DNA from: Flavisolibacter nicotianae
GTDB taxonomy: Bacteria; Bacteroidota; Bacteroidia; Chitinophagales; Chitinophagaceae
Direction: 5' to 3'
NCBI RefSeq assembly: GCF_003628535.1
Contig: NZ_RBCI01000015.1
Coordinates: 1-64,000 of the forward strand
Length of the DNA: 64,000 bases
Shown here in pieces: positions 51,251-64,000 of the stretch. The position numbers were made by a program, and so were the translations under genes. The stretch's first letter is position 1, and each line of letters begins with the position of its first letter. The notes under the pieces were generated by a model. That model worked only from the letters and a program-made list of their open reading frames with translations. It made no database searches and was not told the origin of the DNA.

Positions 51251-52564
51251 TTATTCTTCCAGGGAAAGTTTGTTCAGCGTGCCATCCGGAATTTTCATGA
51301 AGGACTTTTGAAGCGGCAGGTCGATGTAGAACCGCGACCCTTTGCCATTCTCACTTTCCGCACTGATGCGGCCCTGGTGTTTGTCGATAATTTTCTTACA
51401 GATCGAAAGTCCCACGCCGGTGCCTTCGTATTCATGGTAGCTATGCAGCCGCTTGAAAACAACAAAGATTTCTTCGGCATATTTTTCGTCGAACCCAATG
51501 CCATTGTCTTCAACCACAATCCGACAATTGGTATCAAACTCGCTATTCATTGGTGTATCGTTCGCCTGGCAATATATAGAAACAATGGGTACTATTTCGG
51601 GCTTCCGGAATTTTATGGCGTTGCTTATCAAATTCTGAAACAACTGCCGCATGCCGCTCGGATTGGCCCAAAGCGTCGGCAGCGAATCCACTTTTACCTG
51701 GGCCCTGTTTTTTTCAATCTCCACTTCCATGTCCGAAAGCACGTCGGCCACCAGGTGATTCAGGTCCACTTCTGTAAACCCGGCTGCATTGTCTTCCTGG
51801 CGGGAGAAAGCCAGAAGATCGTTGATCAGTTTTTGCATGCGCTCCGATGACTTCATGATCTTTTCCATGTACCGCATCATATCCTCGGTAACATGCTGGC
51901 GTTGGGTACTCAGCAGTTTGTCGCTGAAGACAAGAATTTTCCGCAGCGGTTCCTGCAAATCGTGCGATGCCACGTAAGCAAAACGGTCCAGTTCTTCGAT
52001 CGTGGCTTTCAGGCTGCGGTTATTTTCCAGCAACTGCTGGTTCAGCAGGCGCACCCTTTCTTCCGACATGCGGCGCTCTTCGATTTCACGGGCCAGGTTG
52101 GCGTTCATCTGTTTCAGCTTCTGCTCCTGCAACAGCAACTGGTGGTTCTTCTGGTACATCTCGGCGAATACACCCACTTTGAAACGCAGCAACTCGGGGT
52201 TGATGGGTTTGTAGATGTAATCGATGGCGCCGATTTTATAGCCCTCGAACACATGTTCGTCGTTATAGTTATGCGCCGTGATGAAGATGATGGGAATATG
52301 TTTGAGCTTCTCGCGCTGGTAAATAAGGCTGGCTGTCTCCAGTCCGTTGATGTCGGGCATTTGCACGTCCATGAGGATGAGGGTGAAATCGTGCTGGTTC
52401 AGCAGGATTTTCAGCGCCGCTTTTCCCGACTGCGCTTTGACGATCTCGTAATTGTCGTTTTCAAGAATCGTTTCAATGGATAACAGGTTATCGGGCCGGT
52501 CGTCCACGATCAAAATTTTGATCCGCTTCTCAAGCTTTATATCGTCCAGGTTCAAGGCTTCCAT
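51251..52564 (-). CDS. Response-regulator/histidine kinase fusion (REC-HisKA-HATPase)
   Basis: The product has 437 residues and is soluble. The N-terminal receiver (about 15-130) has the acceptor Asp66 in LILMDVQMPDING and the C-terminal KP of DYIYKPINPELL. A coiled coil (about 138-192) leads to HisKA with His201 in YVASHDLQEPLRKI, of the phytochrome-like type, then a HATPase (NLISNAIKF, VEDNGIGFDEKYAEEIF, GTGVGLSICKKII). A phosphate on the receiver is likely to tune the kinase. It is downstream of the giant poly-HAMP kinase gene on the same strand with a 112-bp gap containing heptamer repeats, so it may be its relay partner. Confidence 0.93.
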   Translation of the reverse strand: MEALNLDDIKLEKRIKILIVDDRPDNLLSIETILENDNYEIVKAQSGKAALKILLNQHDFTLILMDVQMPDINGLETASLIYQREKLKHIPIIFITAHNYNDEHVFEGYKIGAIDYIYKPINPELLRFKVGVFAEMYQKNHQLLLQEQKLKQMNANLAREIEERRMSEERVRLLNQQLLENNRSLKATIEELDRFAYVASHDLQEPLRKILVFSDKLLSTQRQHVTEDMMRYMEKIMKSSERMQKLINDLLAFSRQEDNAAGFTEVDLNHLVADVLSDMEVEIEKNRAQVKVDSLPTLWANPSGMRQLFQNLISNAIKFRKPEIVPIVSIYCQANDTPMNSEFDTNCRIVVEDNGIGFDEKYAEEIFVVFKRLHSYHEYEGTGVGLSICKKIIDKHQGRISAESENGKGSRFYIDLPLQKSFMKIPDGTLNKLSLEE

Positions 52565-52582: not shown

Positions 52583-52678
52583 ACATCAAACGCGAGACGT
52601 AAAACTGAAGGCCCCTGATTACCGGCTAACAACTGCTTTACGTTTGACGTTTGACGTTTGACGTTTCACATTTCACTT
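52583..52678. repeat. Inverted pair of 7-bp repeat arrays (locus B)
   Basis: The left arm 52583-52603 is ACATCAA, ACGCGAG, ACGTAAA. The right arm 52637-52678 read on the minus strand is AAGTGAA, ATGTGAA, ACGTCAA, ACGTCAA, ACGTCAA, ACGTAAA. The spacer is about 26-33 bp. The consensus ACGTSAA and the inverted-arm design match locus A near 3.9 kb. The right arm overlaps the stop codon of the giant kinase gene. Confidence 0.8.
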
Positions 52679-55600
52679 ATTTATACAGCCATACTCGCAT
52701 CAGCGACAATAACTGGTCAATTTTCACCGGCTTTGTAATATAATCCGATGCGCCGGCTTCAATGCATTTTTCACGGTCGCCCTTCATGGCTTTGGCCGTA
52801 ACAGCAATGATCGGCAGGCTGCTGTTCTTATGCTCCCGCCTGATCTTTTGCGTTGTTTCGTAACCGTCCATTTCGGGCATCATGATATCCATCAGCACCA
52901 TATCAACCGATTTGTTGTCGGTCAAAATATTGATGGCCTCCTGGCCGCTTTCCGCCGTGATGCAATTGATATTGTATCGCTCAAAAGCGGTGGTCAGTGC
53001 AAACAGGTTCCGCACATCATCATCCACGATCAGGATGGTCTTAGTAGCCAGCACATCCTCGCGGCTGCGGAGATTTTCAATGATCATTTGCTTCTCGGGC
53101 TGCAGCTCTTTGTGATTGATATGCAGCAGCATCACCACTTCTTCCAGCAGGAGGTCGACCGAGTTCACATCCTTCAGCAGAATGCGGTTGGCATACTGTT
53201 TCAACTGGGTTTTCTCTTTCGGCGAGAAATCCTTGGCCGAGTACACCAGCACCGGCATCATCTTGTCTTTTCTCAGTTCGTGGATTTGGGTTACAAACTC
53301 CATTCCACCAATGTCGGGCAGCATGTAGTCCACGATCACGCAATCGTACGATTTTGCGTTCAGCATGGCTATGCCCTGCTCGCCGGTGCTCACGAAATCC
53401 ATGTTGATGATATCCTCACCCAGGTCGAGGATCTTGGCAATCTGCGATGAATCGAGCTCATTGTCTTCCACGATCAGCAGCCGTTTGGGGCGGTCCTGCT
53501 GGTATTGAATGATGTCTTCGAACAACACGGAAAGTGCCTCTGCTTTCAGCGGTTTCAGGTGGAAACTGCGGGCCCCGCGCTGCATGGCCAGCAGGCGGTT
53601 TTCCTCACCCGAAATCAGGTGCACCGGAATATGTCGGAAGTTGATATCGTTTTTGAACAGGTCAAGAATGCGCCAGCCGCTCGCATCCGGAAGTTTCACA
53701 TCCAGCGTTACGGCAATGGGATTGTATTTGTTGGTCAGATCAAACACATCGCCAAAGCCCGTGGCCACCACCACCTTCAGGTTCATCTCGTGGGCTTTCT
53801 CCACCATGATCTTGGCAAAACGAATGTCGTCTTCCACCACCAGCACCACTTTATCGGTGGGTAGGATGTTGTTGCGGTCGTCGCCCACTTCGTTGATGAT
53901 CTCGTTCAGCACGTTGAGGTCTTTTACCTCGTTGGCCACTTTGATGGTCGGTACCGATTCGATCGTTACATCGTCGCTGCTCAGCGTCTCCGCCAGTTTG
54001 TATTCGCTAACGGTCAGGCTGCTTTGCTTTTCCTTCTTCACCATGTTGGGGTTGTAATCGATCGGCAGGTACAGGGTGAATGTACTGCCCTGCCCTACTT
54101 CACTTTCCAGTTCGATTGATCCACCCAGGAGGTCGGCCAGACCACGGGAGATCGATAGTCCCAAACCGGTACCGCCGTATTTGCGGGACGTGGAGCCTTC
54201 TGCCTGCTGGAAGGATTCGAAGATGATCTTGTGCTTGTCTTTCGAAATTCCGATACCCGAGTCTTTGATCTCGAAGGCCACGACTTTATTGGCGTTGTCG
54301 AGATTCGGGTTCAACTGCCGCCAGTTTCGTTTCGCCTCGTAGATCTTGAGTTGCACACCTCCCTTGTCGGTAAACTTAAACGCATTCGACAGGAGGTTCT
54401 TCAGGATCTGGTTCAGCCGCTGCACGTCGGTTTCGATCGTGTCCGGAAGGTGCTTGTCCATTTCGATGGCGAACTTGAGGCTCTTGCTTTCCGAAATGTG
54501 CTTGAAGGTTGTCTCAACAAACGAGGTGATCTCGTTAAAGCGAACATTGATAAATTCTGTGGAAATGTAACCGGATTCGATCTTCGACAGGTCAAGAATA
54601 TCGTTGATCAGCTGGATCAGGTCATCACCGCAGGAGTGAATGGTCTTTGCATAACGCACCTGTTTTTCGGACAGGTTGCCTTCACGGTTTTCGTAAAGTT
54701 GTTGTGCCAGGATCAACAGGGAGTTCAACGGCGTCCGCAGCTCGTGCGACATGTTGGCCAGGAACTCAGATTTATACTTCGACGTGATCTGCAACTGCTC
54801 GGCTTTTTCTTCCAGCGATTTCCGTGCATCTTCCACCTCTTTGTTTTTGGCTTCCACTTCTTCTTTTTGCTTTACCAGGAGGTGGGCTTTATCCTGCAGT
54901 TCTTCGTTCGTCCGCCGCAATTCATCCGTCAGCGATTGCGACTGTGCCAGCAGTTCCTCGGTTCTCGTGTTGGCTTCGATCGTGTTCAATACGATACCGA
55001 TCGATTCGGTCAACTGGCTCAAGAAGTCGAGGTGGGTTTCGCTGAACTCTCCAAACGAAGCCAGCTCAATTACCGCCTTGATCTGGTTTTCGAACAACAC
55101 CGGCAGCACGATCACACTCACCGGTAGCGACTCACCTAAGCCGGAACCGATCCGCACATAATTGCTCGGCACGTTGGTCAGCAGGATTCGTTCTTTTTCC
55201 ACGGCGCACTGTCCTACCAGGCCCTGTCCTAAGGCAAACTCTTTTTGGATGTTTTGTTCTTCGTTGAAGGCATAGGCCGAGAACAATTTGAGCTTTTTGT
55301 TTTGTTCGAATTCGTCCTGTTCCAGAATATAGAACATGCCCAACTGTGCATCGGCTACCTGGGCCAATTCGGAAAGGATCCGCCGTGTTACCGTGTTCAG
55401 GTCTTTTTGTCCCTGCAACATCTGTGTGAACTTGGCCAGGTTCGATTTCAACCAGTCCTGTTCCTGGTTCAGCAAGGTTGTTGCTTTCAGGTTGGCGATC
55501 ATCTGGTTGATGGTATCTTTCAGCTCTTCTACCTCGCCCCTTGCATCCACGCGGATCATCCGGGTCAGGTCACCCTTGGTTACCGCACTGGCCACCTCGG

Positions 55601-58600
55601 AGATGGCACGCACCTGGGTTGTCAGGTTTTCAGCAAGCTGGTTTACGTTTTCCGTCAGATCCTTCCATGTACCGGAGGCGCCGGGCACCGAGGCCTGTCC
55701 ACCCAGTCGTCCTTCCACACCTACCTCGCGGGCCACGGTGGTTACCTGGTCGGCAAACACCGCCAGCGTATCAATCATTTCGTTGATGGTATCGGTCAGT
55801 TGCGCTACCTCGCCACGGGATACGATCGAGAGTTTTTGTTTCAGGTTACCGGTTGCCACGGCTGTTACCACCTTGGCAATCCCCCGCACCTGGTTGGTGA
55901 GGTTCGAGGCCATCATGTTCACCGAGTCCGTCAGGTCCTTCCAGGTACCGGCCACACCCTGCACCTCGGCCTGGCCACCCAGCTTTCCTTCCGTACCGAC
56001 CTCTCTCGCCACCCTCGTTACCTCGAAGGCAAAGGAGTTCAACTGGTCCACCATCGTGTTGATGGTATTCTTCAGGTCAAGGATCTCTCCTTTTACGTCA
56101 ATCGTTACTTTTTTCGACAGGTCACCGGAGGCCACCGCTTTGGTTACTTCGGCGATGTTCCGCACCTGGAGCGTCAGGTTACCCGTCATCTGGTTCACCG
56201 AGTCGGTCAGGTCTTTCCACGTTCCACCCACACCGGGTACGAAGGCCTGTCCACCCAGTTTACCATCGGTACCTACCTCGCGGGCAACCCTTGTTACCTC
56301 GGAGGCGAAGGCACGGAGCTGGTCCACCATCGTGTTCAGCGTTTCCTTCAACTGGAGGATCTCACCGCGTACGTCCACCGTGATCTTGCGGCTCATGTCT
56401 CCGTTCGCCACCGCGATGGCCACTTCGGCGATGTTCCGCACCTGGGCGGTCAGGTTACCGGCCATGTTATTCACCGAGTCGGTCAGGTCCTTCCAGGTAC
56501 CCGCTACTCCCGGTACGTGCGCCTGACCTCCCAGCTTTCCTTCCGTACCCACTTCCCTTGCCACACGGGTTACCTCGGAGGCGAAGGCACGGAGCTGGTC
56601 CACCATCGTGTTGATGGTGTTTTTCAACTCCAGGATCTCTCCTTTTACATCCACCTCGATCTTCCGCGACAGGTCACCGTTCGCCACCGCCGTTGTTACC
56701 TCGGCGATGTTCCGCACCTGGCCGGTAAGGTTCGAGGCCATTTTATTTACAGAGTCAGTCAAATCTTTCCAAAGGCCTTCCACACCGGGTACGTCGGCCT
56801 GGCCTCCCAGTCGTCCTTCCGAACCAACCTCGCGGGCCACCCTCGTTACCTCCGAACCAAAGGAGTTCAACTGGTCCACCATCGTGTTGATAGTGTTTTT
56901 CAACTCCAGGATCTCTCCTTTTACGTCCACCGTGATCTTGCGGGAAAGATCTCCCTTGGCCACGGCGGTTGTCACCTCGGCGATGTTCCGCACCTGCGCT
57001 GTCAGGTTCGATCCCATCTGGTTTACCGATTCCGTCAAATCCTTCCAGGTTCCTCCCACGCCCTGCACTTTCGCCTGGCCGCCGAGTTTTCCTTCCGTAC
57101 CTACCTCGAGGGCCACACGGGTTACCTCGGAGGCAAAGGAGTTCAACTGGTCCACCATCGTGTTGATGGTCTTTTTCAGTTCGAGGATCTCACCGGCAAC
57201 ATCCACCGTAATTTTTTTACTCAAATCACCATTCGCCACGGCCGTCGTTACCTCGGCGATGTTCCGCACCTGGGCGGTCAGGTTACCGGCCATGTTGTTC
57301 ACGGAGTCGGTGAGGTCTTTCCAGGTTCCTCCCACTCCCTGCACTTTCGCCTGGCCGCCGAGTTTTCCTTCCGTACCTACCTCGAGGGCCACACGGGTTA
57401 CCTCGGAGGCAAAGGAGTTCAACTGGTCCACCATCCGGTTGATCACGTCCTTGATCTGGAGGATCTCTCCTTTTACATCAACGGTGATTTTTTGCGTCAG
57501 GTCACCGTTGGCGATGGCGGTTGCCACCTTCGATACGTCACGCAACTGGACGGTCAGGTTACCGGCCAGCTGGTTTACGTTATCAGTCAGGTCCTTCCAT
57601 ACACCACCCACACCTTTTACCGTTGCCTGGCCTCCCAGTTTACCCTCGGAGCCCACTTCACGGGCCACACGGGTTACCTCGGCAGAGAAGGAGTTGAGCT
57701 GGTCCACCATCGTGTTGATGGTGTTCTTCAGCTCAAGGATTTCACCCCGCACATCCACCGTGATCTTCCGTGAAAGGTCGCCGCGGGAAATGGCCGTCGT
57801 CACCTCGGCGATGTTCCGCACCTGGCCGGTTAGGTTCGAGGCCATCTGGTTTACCGAGTCGGTCAGATCCTTCCAGGTACCGGAAACACCCGGCACCTCG
57901 GCCTGGCCTCCCAGTTTACCCTCGGAGCCCACTTCACGGGCCACACGGGTTACCTCGGAGGAGAAGGAGTTCAATTGGTCCACCATCGTGTTGATGGTGT
58001 TTTTTAATTCAAGGATTTCACCCTGTACGTCTACCGTAATTTTTTTACTCAAATCACCCTTTGCCACCGCCGTGGTTACCTCGGCGATGTTCCGCACCTG
58101 GGCGGTGAGGTTACCGGCCATGAGGTTTACCGAGTCGGTGAGGTCTTTCCATACGCCGGCTACACCTTTTACCTTGGCCTGGCCTCCCAGTTTACCCTCG
58201 GAGCCCACTTCACGGGCCACACGGGTCACCTCCATGGAGAAGAGGTTCAACTGCTTCACCATGTCGTTTACCTCGGAGGCAATACGGGAGAACTCTCCCT
58301 GCAGGCGGTGCTCGCCGATCTGCAGCGGCATTTCCTGCGAAAGATTTCCCTTCGCCACCGACGAGATTACGTGGGCAATTTCAATCGTTGGGTGAACAAG
58401 GTCCGAGATCAGGGTGTTGATTGATTCGGAGGCAGCGCTCCAGGAACCGCGGGCCATGCGGGGCATTTCCACGCGGTGGTTGAGCTTTCCCTGCTTGCCG
58501 ATGATGTTCCGTGCCTGGTTTAGCTCGGATACCAGCGTTTCGTTAAGAGCAATAATCTCGTTAAGCGTATCGTAGATTTTCCCGCTGATGCCGACCTTGT

Positions 58601-58832
58601 CGACAGCCATGCGGGCAGCAAAATTTCCATTCTTGACTTCGGATAAAACCCGGAGGAGTTCACGGCTGTCGACCTCGTCGTCCAACGCTTGTTCGGGTTT
58701 GACCTTTCTGGGTTTTCCGGGCGTTTTCGTTCCGTTGGCCGCTTCGGTTTCGGAGGAAACCGGCACACCATCAAATACAGTAGGGACGGGTGTCTGCAGG
58801 ACACCATTCGTATTTTTCTTTTTGATACTCAT
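52677..58832 (-). CDS. Giant soluble hybrid histidine kinase with ten HAMP repeats
   Basis: The product has 2051 residues with no signal peptide or membrane segment. Residues 1-55 are low-complexity; about 57-200 form a degenerate leading HAMP stretch. Ten tandem 92-residue units run 201-1120, each holding a divergent HAMP ([14 protein letters not shown]...[10 protein letters not shown]) and a canonical one ([17 protein letters not shown]...[16 protein letters not shown]). A GAF domain is at about 1138-1285, a coiled coil 1288-1350, HisKA with His1363 in [12 protein letters not shown], and a HATPase 1465-1590. Three receivers have acceptor Asp1711, Asp1835 and Asp1982. The architecture matches fungal group III kinases (Nik1/Os-1, osmotic and stress sensing) with twice the usual repeat number plus GAF and two extra receivers. 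A -7 promoter candidate is at 58856. Confidence 0.94.
55473..58232 (-). repeat. Ten 276-bp tandem coding repeats (poly-HAMP)
   Basis: Each unit encodes 92 residues; the ten units lie end to end without spacers. Identity varies: 57043-57159 and 57319-57435, exactly 276 bp apart, are identical over 117 bp except one base. Other blocks (for example around 57638, 57908 and 58186) share long identical stretches too. The last two units near 55473-56020 are the most divergent. This mosaic suggests continuing recombination or gene conversion between units. Confidence 0.9.
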
Positions 58833-58863: not shown

Positions 58864-59024
58864 GCAAAAAACTTCGGAATTTGCGGAAAAGTGATTTGGT
58901 AATTCTACTCCTTTTAACAGATGCCGAAAACCGCAGAAAAGGAAGTAGGAAGCACAACTGTTTTGTCTTTACCTTTAAGCCGTTAAAACCGACTGTTACA
59001 CTCCGACTAAACAATAAAAACCCA

Positions 59025-59423
59025 GTGTCCTGTACCATTTTCCTTGCTGAGGATGACATTGATGACCAAGAATTTTTGGAAGATGCGATCCGTTCGATCG
59101 CCCCTGACGTTTTCCTCACCAGCTTTACCAACGGTGCCAAATTCATCGAACATCTCGAAAAAACCGCCGATGAGCAGCTTCCCTGCCTGATCCTCCTCGA
59201 TTACAATATCCCGGAGATCAATGGGGCGGACATCCTGCGACACCTCAACAGATGCCCCCGCTACCAACACATCAAGAAGGTCATCTGGAGTACATCCAAC
59301 TCCTCACTTTTTATCAAAACCTGCCTGTACCTGGGGGCAAAAGACTATGTTATCAAGCCGTCCAGCGTTTCGGGGATCAAGGAAATCGCGCAGAAACTGG
59401 TGAACTGGTGCAATAACTGTTGA
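59025..59423 (+). CDS. Single-domain response regulator
   Basis: The product is 132 residues from a GTG at 59025, chosen because the receiver fold begins at once (SCTIFLAEDDIDDQEFLEDA); the longer frame from 58881 adds about 48 residues without homology and reaches into the promoter region. Acidic pair EDD, acceptor Asp in LLDYNIPEINGADILRHL, Thr/Ser in VIWSTSNS and Lys in DYVIKPSS. Such stand-alone receivers of the CheY/Rcp1 type often pass phosphate between kinases. It is divergent from the poly-HAMP kinase gene, so it may be its partner. Confidence 0.88.
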   Translation: MSCTIFLAEDDIDDQEFLEDAIRSIAPDVFLTSFTNGAKFIEHLEKTADEQLPCLILLDYNIPEINGADILRHLNRCPRYQHIKKVIWSTSNSSLFIKTCLYLGAKDYVIKPSSVSGIKEIAQKLVNWCNNC

Positions 59424-60458: not shown

Positions 60459-61037
60459 TCACGGCAGGAGCTCGTGAATCAGCGCAGGCATTTTTGCAAC
60501 CGGCAACACGGCATCGACACGGACATGGTCAATCGCGTATTGGGGCATGTAGCTCACAACCGCTTCCGTAGGGTCCTGCACGATGACGTACCCGCCTGCT
60601 TCTTTTATTTTTTTTAGCCCAACGGAGCCATCCTGGTTGGCGCCGGAGAGCAGGATCGCAATCAAAGATTCACCGTACACCTCGGCCGCCGACTCGAAGG
60701 TAACATCGATAGAGGGGCGGCTATAGTGCACTTTTTCGGAATAATCCAGCGAGATCGTTTTGTCGTTCTCGATCAGCAGGTGATAATCGGCAGGGGCAAT
60801 GTAAACGGTGCCGGCCAAGATGGTTTCTTTTTCCTCTGCCTCCTTTACCGGCCAGGCAATTTTCTCGGAGAGCAGGTTGGGAAGCAGTGATTCGCTATTC
60901 CGGCGGTGGAGCACCAGCACAATTGCCAGGCCTTTTTCGTTTTGGATTGCCGGCAGCAATTGCAGGATCGCTTCCAGACTCCCTGCCGACCCGCCAATGA
61001 GCAGCAACTCTTTTTTTATGATGCTCCCTTGCGCCAT
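60459..61037 (-). CDS. cheB: CheB-type protein-glutamate methylesterase domain protein
   Basis: The product has 192 residues: the CheB catalytic domain alone, without a receiver. Catalytic triad regions: LLLIGGSAGSLEAILQLLPA (Ser), LVLHRRNSESLLPNLL (His) and LLSGANQDGSVGLKKIKEAG (Asp). Its start overlaps the end of the CheR gene by 22 bp, so the two are translationally coupled. In this context the pair probably acts on a modular kinase or scaffold rather than on chemoreceptors, since none is seen here. Confidence 0.93.
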   Translation of the reverse strand: MAQGSIIKKELLLIGGSAGSLEAILQLLPAIQNEKGLAIVLVLHRRNSESLLPNLLSEKIAWPVKEAEEKETILAGTVYIAPADYHLLIENDKTISLDYSEKVHYSRPSIDVTFESAAEVYGESLIAILLSGANQDGSVGLKKIKEAGGYVIVQDPTEAVVSYMPQYAIDHVRVDAVLPVAKMPALIHELLP

Positions 61038-61825
61038 ATTTTTTCCTTGCCCAATTGTTTGTAGTGCGAAGCGATATCGGAAAAGCGGAGGGTTTCTTTT
61101 GCACCCAGTGCGAGGAAACCCAGCGGCTCGAGGCTTTGATCAAAAAGGGTCAGCACCCGGTCCTGCAACGGCTTTTCAAAATAGATCATCACGTTGCGAC
61201 AAAGAATCAACTGGAACTGGTTGAACGATCCGTCCGACACCAGGTTGTGCGTGGCAAAGACCATGCGCTGCGCCAGGTCGCGGTTGAATTTTGCATAGTC
61301 ATACCGGGTGGTGTAATAAGATGAAAAATCATGCGTACCACCGGATAGGATGTAGTTCTCCGAATACTGCTTCATGGTGCTGAGCGGGAAAATACCGGCT
61401 TTGGCTTTTTCCAGCACATCAGGATTAAGGTCGGTGGCATAGAGCAGGGATTTGTGAAGCAGGTTCGCTTCCTGGAGCAGGATGGCCATCGAATACACTT
61501 CTTCACCGGTGGAACAGCCCGCATGCCAGATGCGGATAAAGGGATAGGTTGCCAGCAGGGGTAACACTTCTTTGCGAAGCAGTTTGTAGAACGCCGGGTC
61601 GCGGAACATTTCGGTCACATTTACTGTGATCTCTTCGACGAAGCGTTTCAGATAGATTTCATCGTTGCGGACACGGTAACGGAACTCGGCAAAACTGGGA
61701 AATTTATCCAGCGCAAACAGCCGCTGCATCCGCCGTTTCAACGAGGCCTTGGAATAGTCGTTGAAATCATACCCATACACCTCCAGCAGATCGTTCAGCA
61801 ATATGTTCACCTCTTCATCCTTCAT
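61016..61825 (-). CDS. cheR: CheR-type methyltransferase
   Basis: The product has 269 residues. An N-terminal helical domain (DLLEVYGYDFNDYSKASLKR, LFALDKFPSFAEFRYRVRND) precedes the SAM-dependent methyltransferase domain: VTEMFRDPAFYKLLRKEVLP, IWHAGCSTGEEVYSMAILLQ (SAM loop), YATDLNPDVLEKAKAGIFPL and FQLILCRNVMIYFEKPLQDR. There is no TPR tail. Methylates glutamates on a sensor protein. It overlaps cheB and is 1 bp from the end of the receiver gene upstream, so at least three genes are one transcript. Confidence 0.95.
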   Translation of the reverse strand: MKDEEVNILLNDLLEVYGYDFNDYSKASLKRRMQRLFALDKFPSFAEFRYRVRNDEIYLKRFVEEITVNVTEMFRDPAFYKLLRKEVLPLLATYPFIRIWHAGCSTGEEVYSMAILLQEANLLHKSLLYATDLNPDVLEKAKAGIFPLSTMKQYSENYILSGGTHDFSSYYTTRYDYAKFNRDLAQRMVFATHNLVSDGSFNQFQLILCRNVMIYFEKPLQDRVLTLFDQSLEPLGFLALGAKETLRFSDIASHYKQLGKEKIWRKGAS

Positions 61826-61826
61826 C

Positions 61827-62210
61827 CTAGCTTTCGACTTTATGCGCTTTTAACAGGGACAGTAATACATCCACGTCGACGGGCTTGGAAATGTATTCGT
61901 CCGCACCGGCTTCCAGGCAGCGCTCCCGGTCGCCGACCATGGCCTGCGCCGTTACGGCAAATACAGGGATCTCAGCCAGGTCCGGCTCAGTTTTCAAAAT
62001 CGACAGCGCCTGGTAACCGTCCATGCCGGGCATCATCATATCGAGTAAAACAACCTTGATGCCTTTTTGTTTTTGCAGCAGCGCAATTCCTTCCTGTGCC
62101 GATGGAGCGGACAGCACGTCGAAGCCTTTGGCTCGCAGTACGGCCGACAGGGCAAAAATGTTGCGGCTGTCGTCGTCGATAAGCAGGATTGTGTTTTCTT
62201 TTTCGTTCAT
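61827..62210 (-). CDS. Single-domain response regulator (CheY-like)
   Basis: The product has 127 residues: a receiver with DDD at the acidic pocket (ILLIDDDSRNIFALSAVL), the acceptor Asp in VVLLDMMMPGMDGYQALSIL, Thr in VFAVTAQAMVGDRERCLEAG and Lys in ISKPVDVDVLLSLLKAHK. Closely resembles the last receiver of the two hybrid kinases in this island, suggesting it split off from such a kinase. Packed between the hybrid kinase (3 bp) and cheR (1 bp). Confidence 0.95.
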   Translation of the reverse strand: MNEKENTILLIDDDSRNIFALSAVLRAKGFDVLSAPSAQEGIALLQKQKGIKVVLLDMMMPGMDGYQALSILKTEPDLAEIPVFAVTAQAMVGDRERCLEAGADEYISKPVDVDVLLSLLKAHKVES

Positions 62211-62213
62211 GAA

Positions 62214-64000
62214 TTAAAAGCTTTTATCGTAGAGCCATACACGTAACAGCGACAACAACTGGTCGATGTCGACCGGTTTTGAAATATAATCCGAGGCGCC
62301 CGCCTTAATGCATTTTTCCCGGTCGCCAGTCATGGCTTTGGCCGTAATGGCAATGATGGGCAGGTTGCGGTACTGCGGCTTTTTCCGGATTTGCTGCATG
62401 GCTTCGTAACCATCCATTTCGGGCATCATGATGTCCATGAGCACGGCATTGATATCGGGATTTTCGGCCAGCTTTTGCAAGGCTTCCTTACCATCCATGG
62501 CCGCAATCACCTGCACGTTGTGCAGTTCCAGCGCTTTGGTGAGTGAAAAAATATTGCGAACGTCGTCGTCGGTGACGAGAATTTTTTTGCCGGACAACAC
62601 TTCGTTCAATGCGCCCATGCGGCGGTAGCCGGCGGGCTTGTCTTTGCGACTGGCTTCTTCCACCAGGTGAAGGAAAAGCGATACTTCATCAAGGATGCGT
62701 TGGTACGAATGCGCCGTTTTGATCACAATCGAATCGGCATACTGGCGAATCTTCGATTCTTCCGTTTTCGACAGGCTTTTCCCGGTGAAAATGATGATGG
62801 GCAGATTTTCGAGACCGGGATTTTGCTTGACGGTTTCAAGGGTTTCGTATGCCTGCTGATCGGGAATGCCCATGTCGAGAATCACGCAATCCACTTCGTC
62901 TTTCTGCAAGGCATTCACCCCTTCGTTTACGGTCGGTGAAATTTGTGCGGAGACATGAAACGATTCCAGAAAATACGCAAGCGCCTTTGCATGTTGCGGG
63001 TTTTCTTCCACAATCAACACTTTCTTGTGCTCCTTGCTCAACACATGCTCGATCTTTTTAAACACTTCCTGCATCTGGTCGAATGCAACCGGCTTGCTGA
63101 TGAAATCGATGGCACCTTTTTGCAGGCTTTCTTTTTTTGCCTCGTACGCCGACATCATGTGCACGGGAATGTGGCGGGTAGCGGGATTGGCCTTTAATTC
63201 TTCCATCACTTCCCAGCCATCTTTCACCGGCAATTGAATGTCGAGCAAAATACCCGTAGGCCGGTATTGCTGCGCCAGCGCAATGCCTTCGTCGCCGCGA
63301 ACCGCAACAAGGCCTTTGTATCCTTTCTGGTGTGTGTAATCGAGAAGGGCTTTGGCAAATGCCGTATCGTCTTCAATGATCAGGATCGTTTTGTCCTGCG
63401 AGTTTGTGCTGTTGCGATCATCCGGCAGGCTTTCGGGAATTTTGTCCGAACGGAAGTTTTTTGCCTTTGCCGGCCTGGTGACGGTGGTTTCGGCCGCCAC
63501 AACCGGTTCGGGAACAGCTGCCGGCATTGGCACGTCTTTCATCTTTGCCTTGGGTACATACACGGTAAACTCGCTGCCTTTTCCCGGCTCGCTTGCCAGC
63601 TTAATCTCACCGCCCAGCAACCGGATCAGTTCGCGGCTGATCGAAAGGCCCAAACCCGTGCCGCCGTATTTTCTCCGTGTGGAACCATCGGCCTGCTGAA
63701 ACGCCTCGAAGATGAGGGCCTGTTTTTCCGCCGGAATTCCGATTCCGGTGTCTTTTACGGTGAAGGCAAGAAATGGATGATCGTCCGGCAGGGTTGACAC
63801 GTTCAATTGTACCGAGCCCTGGGCCGTAAACTTGATGGCATTGGAAAGCAGGTTGCGCAAGACCTGCTCCAGCCGCAGCTTGTCAGTTTCGAGTTGCGAC
63901 GGCACCTCCGGCGCCACATTGATTTCGAACCCGATCCCTTTTTCCCTGGCAACCGGTGCAAAAAGCGCTTTCATATCGGCCGTGATTTCCTGCACTATTA
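62214..64000 (-). CDS. Hybrid histidine kinase, C-terminal part (HATPase and three receivers)
   Basis: The frame is open to the right edge, so the N-terminus and any sensor or HisKA domain lie outside. The visible 594 residues begin just before the HATPase ([59 protein letters not shown]). Three receivers follow, with acceptor Asp in ILLDIQLPVKDGWEV, VILDMGIPDQQAYET and [15 protein letters not shown]. The order and wording equal the C-terminus of the poly-HAMP kinase (ending KPVDIDQLLSLLRVWLY here, [17 protein letters not shown] there), so the two are paralogues. The second receiver has EEN instead of the usual EDD acidic pocket. Confidence 0.93.
   Translation of the reverse strand, partial: IVQEITADMKALFAPVAREKGIGFEINVAPEVPSQLETDKLRLEQVLRNLLSNAIKFTAQGSVQLNVSTLPDDHPFLAFTVKDTGIGIPAEKQALIFEAFQQADGSTRRKYGGTGLGLSISRELIRLLGGEIKLASEPGKGSEFTVYVPKAKMKDVPMPAAVPEPVVAAETTVTRPAKAKNFRSDKIPESLPDDRNSTNSQDKTILIIEDDTAFAKALLDYTHQKGYKGLVAVRGDEGIALAQQYRPTGILLDIQLPVKDGWEVMEELKANPATRHIPVHMMSAYEAKKESLQKGAIDFISKPVAFDQMQEVFKKIEHVLSKEHKKVLIVEENPQHAKALAYFLESFHVSAQISPTVNEGVNALQKDEVDCVILDMGIPDQQAYETLETVKQNPGLENLPIIIFTGKSLSKTEESKIRQYADSIVIKTAHSYQRILDEVSLFLHLVEEASRKDKPAGYRRMGALNEVLSGKKILVTDDDVRNIFSLTKALELHNVQVIAAMDGKEALQKLAENPDINAVLMDIMMPEMDGYEAMQQIRKKPQYRNLPIIAITAKAMTGDREKCIKAGASDYISKPVDIDQLLSLLRVWLYDKSF

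Follow-up and report, generated by a model that had tools for sequence, protein, structure and literature searches.

A poly-HAMP hybrid histidine kinase of Flavisolibacter nicotianae belongs to a widespread bacterial family with conserved repeat units and a recurrent downstream partner gene

Group III hybrid histidine kinases are described as fungal-specific (PMC11253588) and are reported to carry 5–7 repeats ahead of the histidine kinase, ATPase and receiver domains (PMC5159414). In the account of CaNik1 in PMC3848655, nine HAMP domains, arranged as four 92-residue pairs plus one, are combined with HisKA, HATPase and receiver domains, and a variant without all HAMP domains is reported to activate Hog1p without any stimulus. 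The latter observation fits a rod that sets the state of the kinase, a principle that may carry over to bacterial proteins. Bacterial kinases of this general build have been described as well: Amb07, AskA and AskB were likened to group III in 2020, with a poly-HAMP region longer than that of NIK1 (PMC7643160), and a 2015 survey of Azospirillum lists kinases with "nine tandem repeated HAMP-GAF" (PMC4618731). Because these two papers describe such kinases, the likeness between bacterial and fungal proteins is already in print. For Myxococcus xanthus, it is further reported that askC sits immediately downstream of askB, that AskC binds both AskA and AskB, its receiver touching Rec3 of AskA by two-hybrid, and that AskC binds ambruticin weakly (PMC7643160).

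Here, we analyze a poly-HAMP hybrid histidine kinase of 2051 residues encoded on the minus strand (52677..58832; ORF list and Pfam) of a 64,000-nucleotide stretch of the Flavisolibacter nicotianae genome, referred to as the window. The protein is a further member of a widespread and already published bacterial kinase family. We consider it probable, at about 0.6, that it is a soluble dimeric hybrid kinase of the AskA/AskB/Amb07 family, controlled by its HAMP rod and accompanied by a downstream partner with a receiver and a histidine kinase (REC-HK). To the published picture, our analysis adds the conservation of the repeat units, a distinct C-terminal pair of units, the presence of the partner gene across phyla, and a transmembrane paralogue encoded nearby.

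All parts of the kinase gene are given on the minus strand. An N-terminal cap (aa 51–200; 58233..58682) comprises three HAMP domains, recognized from an AlphaFold2 model and an alignment to PDB entry 9trk, which have diverged further than the repeats. It is followed by ten units of exactly 92 residues with two HAMP domains each (aa 201–1120; 55473..58232; Pfam and self-comparison), starting at residues 201, 293 and so forth to 1029, of which units 9 and 10 form the C-terminal pair. The remainder contains a GAF domain (aa 1143–1282; 54987..55406; Pfam GAF_2, E 5e-19), HisKA (aa 1354–1421; 54570..54773; Pfam), HATPase_c (aa 1469–1591; 54060..54428; Pfam), and three Pfam Response_reg receivers at approximately aa 1660–1785 (53478..53855), aa 1783–1910 (53103..53486), and aa 1931–2051 (52680..53042), the second of which shows the lowest conservation within the signalling half. 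From the positions of the motifs, we take His1363 and, in the three receivers in turn, Asp1711, Asp1835 and Asp1982 to be the putative phospho-acceptors.

An earlier note on this DNA had proposed ten HAMP-pair units of 92 residues without a membrane segment, followed by GAF, kinase and three receivers, and these claims are borne out. When the protein is compared with itself, the identity is 0.70 at a lag of 92 residues and at most 0.126 at lags of 5–299 other than 92, 184 and 276. Pfam HAMP (PF00672) recognizes ten stretches (E 1e-103, 339.8 bits against a cut-off of 25) and HAMP_2 (PF18947) eleven (317.6 bits against a cut-off of 24.3), so that the repeats are HAMP domains by profile, in agreement with the structural model and fold match described below. 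The highest 19-residue Kyte–Doolittle mean, 1.62, falls inside the GAF domain; hence no membrane segment is seen, and a reading of the protein as a membrane sensor was ruled out. With many HAMP domains, no membrane segment, a histidine kinase and several receivers, it has the hallmarks of the bacterial poly-HAMP hybrid kinases. Its description as Nik1-like applies to the rod, which shares the 92-residue HAMP-pair period reported for CaNik1, but not to the signalling half with its GAF domain and three receivers, since the Nik1 layout places histidine kinase, ATPase and a single receiver after the HAMP repeats. The rod does span aa 201–1120 as claimed, but the cap with its three additional HAMP domains had been overlooked.

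For the start of the rod (aa 51–292), an AlphaFold2 model of a single chain was obtained from an alignment of 54 sequences, namely that of the window and 53 of the 67 other reference relatives. It has a mean pLDDT of 88.9 and comprises six helices and five connectors, which we read as five HAMP domains, three in the cap and two in unit 1; if units 2–10 resemble unit 1, the whole kinase would contain 23. The model has the helix-connector-helix fold of HAMP domains, and in a Foldseek search the poly-HAMP region of Aer2 ranked first (probability 1.00, E ~0.009), with HAMP domains of both Aer2 and Af1503 among the matches and none at E <= 0.001. A single-sequence model of aa 45–476 reached a pLDDT of only 41 and was discarded. 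While the model covers one chain, HAMP biology suggests that the rod is a dimer. By sequence, a histidine kinase-Gcn4p fusion, PDB 9trk, matches the window kinase from the cap through unit 1 into the beginning of unit 2 (294 bits), with the cap aligned to 9trk residues 51–193; in 9trk and 9trj, both fusions of this kind, the fragment alone has been solved. No fungal Nik1 was found among the PDB matches to two units of the window kinase.

How widespread such rods are was assessed by scanning an alignment of the units against 84,980 species genomes, which gave 593 pattern matches, 585 of them confirmed; the best 80 of the 585, with a per-unit identity of 87–98%, were taken and correspond to 79 loci. 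Among these matches are members from Bacteroidota, Cyanobacteriota, Acidobacteriota, Pseudomonadota, Myxococcota, Planctomycetota and Verrucomicrobiota, together with incomplete ones from Chloroflexi, Eremiobacterota, Gemmatimonadota and Elusimicrobiota. Matches also occur in 171 plasmid records, 112 of them from Rhizobium, and in no phage record. Within Bacteroidota the array is patchy: in a sample of 296 genomes of completeness 90 or more, among them that of F. nicotianae, a match with E <= 0.001 occurs in 107 and one below 1e-40 in only ten, the others being weak. The corresponding numbers for a sample of the phylum of Polyangium are 26 of 95 genomes and four.

Complete members, defined as frames closed at both ends with at least six units, number 69 among the matches listed (loci L009–L117), representing seven phyla. 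Twelve belong to the genus or family of the window, whose own locus is L009 (L009–L019 and L022); loci that run off contig ends, are broken across frames, or have no or few units were left out. Two incomplete loci were kept, L113, with its kinase half in another frame, and L070, with its N-terminal part in another frame, and their unit numbers are therefore lower bounds. The earlier note counted twice as many units as in the fungal kinases; that such a rod is special is not supported by this comparison: the 69 members listed carry 6–13 units after the cap, namely 6 (6 proteins), 7 (1), 8 (2), 9 (10), 10 (16), 11 (22), 12 (10) or 13 (2), so that eleven is the commonest number and the ten units of the window kinase lie mid-range. 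Ten units are found in all ten complete loci of the same genus and in three Chitinophaga loci, eleven in four Flavobacterium loci, twelve in two Cytophagaceae bins, and six in L022 of the same family. The distance from cap to unit 1 is 96–98 residues in 68 of the 69, the exception being the L070 frame, which lacks the cap.

Several variants were observed alongside the complete members. At L113, L070, L072, L117 and L063, the poly-HAMP gene is spread over at least two frames, and at L113 a stop just ahead of the kinase part closes the HAMP rod; we take these cases for frameshifts, pseudogenes or assembly errors. Shorter frames of 1484 and 1491 aa from one Bacteroidota family (L138 and genome G202) have a last unit that matches weakly, with 71 bits in L138, and no kinase or receiver domain was recognized in the L138 array frame with the domains of the window kinase as queries. 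In an Acidobacteriota frame of 2736 aa (L115), the block of three receivers after the array looks duplicated as read from the sequence. Finally, a frame of 1649 aa with hydrophobic N-terminal stretches (L135) contains another HAMP-like array of 91-residue units, which are 82% alike within the array and score only ~20 bits each against the poly-HAMP unit model. In view of this array, we dropped sameness within the array as a special trait of the family; judged from sequence comparison, the special trait of the poly-HAMP units is their conservation between groups.

This conservation was quantified by comparing the window kinase with 19 representatives of nine groups, three of them other Bacteroidota. 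The identities are 0.82 for the core units, 0.80 for the penultimate and 0.78 for the last unit, compared to 0.60 for GAF, 0.62 for HisKA plus HATPase, and 0.40, 0.29 and 0.63 for receivers 1, 2 and 3. By this measure of sequence identity, the core units (82%) are conserved above the kinase core (62%) across groups. In 68 proteins, the identity among core units is 0.84 from one protein to another and 0.86 inside a single protein, whereas last units are 0.80 identical to the last units of other proteins and 0.58 to core units, and penultimate units 0.81 to other penultimates and 0.69 to core units. The last two units thus make up an old, conserved and distinct pair, which implies that the arrays change length in the middle.

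Units with as much as 90% amino-acid identity could, in principle, stem from a recent tandem duplication or from an assembly artefact without function. The eight core units of the window kinase, however, have a median dS of 0.98 and a median dN of 0.15, as expected for old units under purifying selection rather than fresh copies. Moreover, in 98 of 100 comparisons with the units of ten close orthologues, the unit of the same index matches best, and the spacing from unit to unit is exactly 92 residues in 69 of the 69 complete members listed. We therefore give next to no credence to a recent or artefactual origin of the array.

The same conservation could be explained if the rod were mainly a scaffold, whose frozen surface would bind a partner, DNA or neighbouring rods, with relay along the rod being secondary. 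Across 559 core units, identity reaches 98% or more at 40 of the 92 columns, and 25 of these 40 fall in the first half of the unit. This, like the conservation of core units above the kinase core, would suit a binding surface. DNA is a candidate: in vitro binding of PmrpC DNA is reported for AskB from both gel shift and pull-down and for AskA from pull-down alone, and partial HTH matches were taken there to suggest that the two proteins bind DNA (PMC7643160). The HTH-like profile matches of the window kinase are weak, however, and the modelled part of the rod consists of HAMP helices. Its best SpoIIID stretch (aa 595–621) lies in the HAMP repeats, but no single stretch passes on its own; the partial matches may be noise summed over the repeats, and the best HTH_6 stretch (1601–1635) lies outside the rod; DNA binding through these matches was not adopted. 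Overall, we regard a mainly scaffolding rod as unlikely and prefer a rod that controls the kinase.

Additional evidence on the input side comes from another minus-strand signalling cluster (window 60459–63995, genome C7:62214–67801; Pfam), which encodes a REC-HK protein (523 aa), a NIT-HAMP-GAF-HK-REC3 kinase (1339 aa), a single receiver, CheR and CheB. The gene of the transmembrane 1339-residue kinase (C7:62214–66233, minus strand) extends past the end of the window and lies 3.4 kb from the poly-HAMP kinase gene. In its product, the GAF, HisKA and HATPase domains and the three receivers are preceded by a NIT sensor and a match to HAMP; over 1004 columns, the product is 37% identical to aa 1081–2050 of the poly-HAMP kinase. 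The REC-HK neighbour of the paralogue is directly upstream, unlike the partner in the window, which is downstream, and the kinase halves of these two REC-HK proteins are 46% identical over 279 columns. The shared GAF-HK-REC3 half and the REC-HK neighbour suggest that the poly-HAMP rod stands in the place of a transmembrane sensor; of the local evidence, the paralogue offers the strongest hint that the rod is the input side.

The make-up of the signalling half also bears on whether the window kinase could be a true orthologue or near-ancestor of the fungal group III kinases (Nik1/Os-1) that works as an osmosensor in the manner of these. Both share the 92-residue HAMP-pair period and the absence of a membrane segment, according to the published descriptions, and the bacterial proteins are termed group III-like in PMC7643160. 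On the other hand, the window kinase has a GAF domain and three receivers, whereas the fungal proteins, as described in the available parts of PMC3848655 and PMC5159414, have a receiver after histidine kinase and ATPase, with no GAF domain named, and its signalling half resembles the NIT-sensor kinase of its own genome. In a tree of the GAF-HK core (68 of the 69 rows), Bacteroidota fall on one branch and Cyanobacteriota on another, and the window kinase is inside an ordinary Bacteroidota clade. The phylum labels of seven groups require nine changes on this tree, the minimum being six, with some joins flagged as long-branch and uncertain. Among these bacterial sequences, nothing marks the window kinase as ancestral, and orthology to the fungal osmosensors appears quite improbable to us.

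The candidate partner in the window is a REC-HisKA-HATPase gene of 437 aa (51251..52564; Pfam) on the same strand, 112 nt downstream of the kinase gene and AskC-like by position and layout. On the other side, a single receiver gene (58881..59423, plus strand; Pfam and neighbourhood) is transcribed divergently from the kinase gene; of the 11 further loci from the same genus or family, 9 likewise have a divergent receiver-only ORF upstream. In a count on stop-to-stop frames, with a limit of 600 nt for the distance to the first domain, 56 of the 69 listed members are directly followed by a receiver-first gene; in 48 it is REC-HK and in eight the receiver alone was recognized. This arrangement is found in Bacteroidota (31 of 31), Alphaproteobacteria (15 of 15), Acidobacteriota (4 of 5), Myxococcota (2 of 2), Verrucomicrobiota (1 of 2), Planctomycetota (1 of 1) and Gammaproteobacteria (1 of 1), and is rare elsewhere (Cyanobacteriota 1 of 8, Betaproteobacteria 0 of 4). 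Among the other 13 loci, CheR comes first in six, including L079, L064 and L054, where CheB and a REC-HK gene follow, and seven have another gene there or no recognized partner. Four Flavobacterium loci also have an HK-only ORF and receiver-only ORFs immediately ahead of the kinase gene and in its orientation. Three Polyangium arrays (L076, the gene also listed as L137; L080; and L136) are each directly followed by a REC-HK gene.

As a control using one definition for both sides, a REC-HK gene in the same direction was sought within 2.8 kb (~1.5 kb in some loci with shorter flanks), and was found downstream in 50 of 69 loci and upstream in 0 of 69. A first, ORF-based count had given 42 of 69 for a receiver-first gene downstream, leaving out genes whose first start overlaps the kinase stop; the two downstream counts differ both ways, as L104 and L105 have a receiver-bearing ORF in the ORF-based count only. 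We found no description of a cross-phylum pairing of poly-HAMP kinase and REC-HK in the open-access literature, with subscription journals and preprints mostly outside this search, and peptides of the repeat unit retrieved no related paper. In gene order and layout, the kinase and its partner in the window parallel askB-askC as described in PMC7643160.

Based on these results, we propose a model for the soluble, rod-controlled kinase. The HAMP rod would constitute a continuous dimeric stalk with a switchable conformational state, which might be set by an intracellular condition, such as a solute or the osmotic state, or by a bound partner, and would in turn control the kinase through the GAF domain and the coiled coil. 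His1363 would be phosphorylated, and the phosphate passed on to the three receivers, as presumed from the family. The downstream REC-HK protein may dock via its receiver and adjust or redirect the signal, by analogy with AskC acting on AskA (through Rec3) and AskB. A role as a stress sensor could be envisaged for the window kinase. Fungal kinases of this group relay to a stand-alone HPt protein, Ypd1; the three Hpt matches of this genome, two of them over the cut-off, all lie in frames of 724–1034 aa and none in a small separate protein, which lends no support to such a relay here, although a divergent HPt could be missed.

A bolder and rather doubtful conjecture is that poly-HAMP kinase and REC-HK form a two-gene intracellular module of several phyla, in which the units are near-constant because the surface of the rod recognizes a common ligand or partner, making the rod a sensor rather than a relay, and whose reduced eukaryotic version, without the partner gene, would be the kinases that fungicides target in fungi. 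Why 20 or more consecutive HAMP domains are needed, and what the input to the rod is, can be asked of the fungal fungicide targets as much as of the bacterial proteins. In soil bacteria that are easy to grow, both questions have two concrete handles in the conserved partner gene and the frozen unit sequence, and if AskC-type partners generally carry the ligand response, the fungal kinases may need an unrecognized partner too.

Among the systems described so far, AskA (MXAN_0712) and AskB (MXAN_6735) of Myxococcus xanthus and Amb07 of Sorangium are, like the window protein, hybrid kinases with a poly-HAMP N-terminus and several receivers; they come from a different phylum, and both the likeness and their domain counts follow the description in PMC7643160. 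The Azospirillum proteins AZOLI_p30171 and AZL_c01470, termed orphan kinases (PMC4618731), are reported to have a HAMP-GAF region repeated nine times, and a relative that is 87.5% identical across two units is found on plasmids of A. lipoferum 4B and Azospirillum sp. B510. Aer2 of Pseudomonas (3lnr, 4i3m), the best fold match, differs in being a soluble receptor rather than a kinase and matches at 14% sequence identity. The fungal CaNik1, Os-1, Bos1 and TcsC are described as cytoplasmic and without a membrane segment, like the window kinase, and CaNik1 shares its 92-residue HAMP-pair repeats, but combines nine HAMP domains with a receiver after the kinase and no GAF domain in the published description available, in place of the GAF domain and three receivers of the window kinase.
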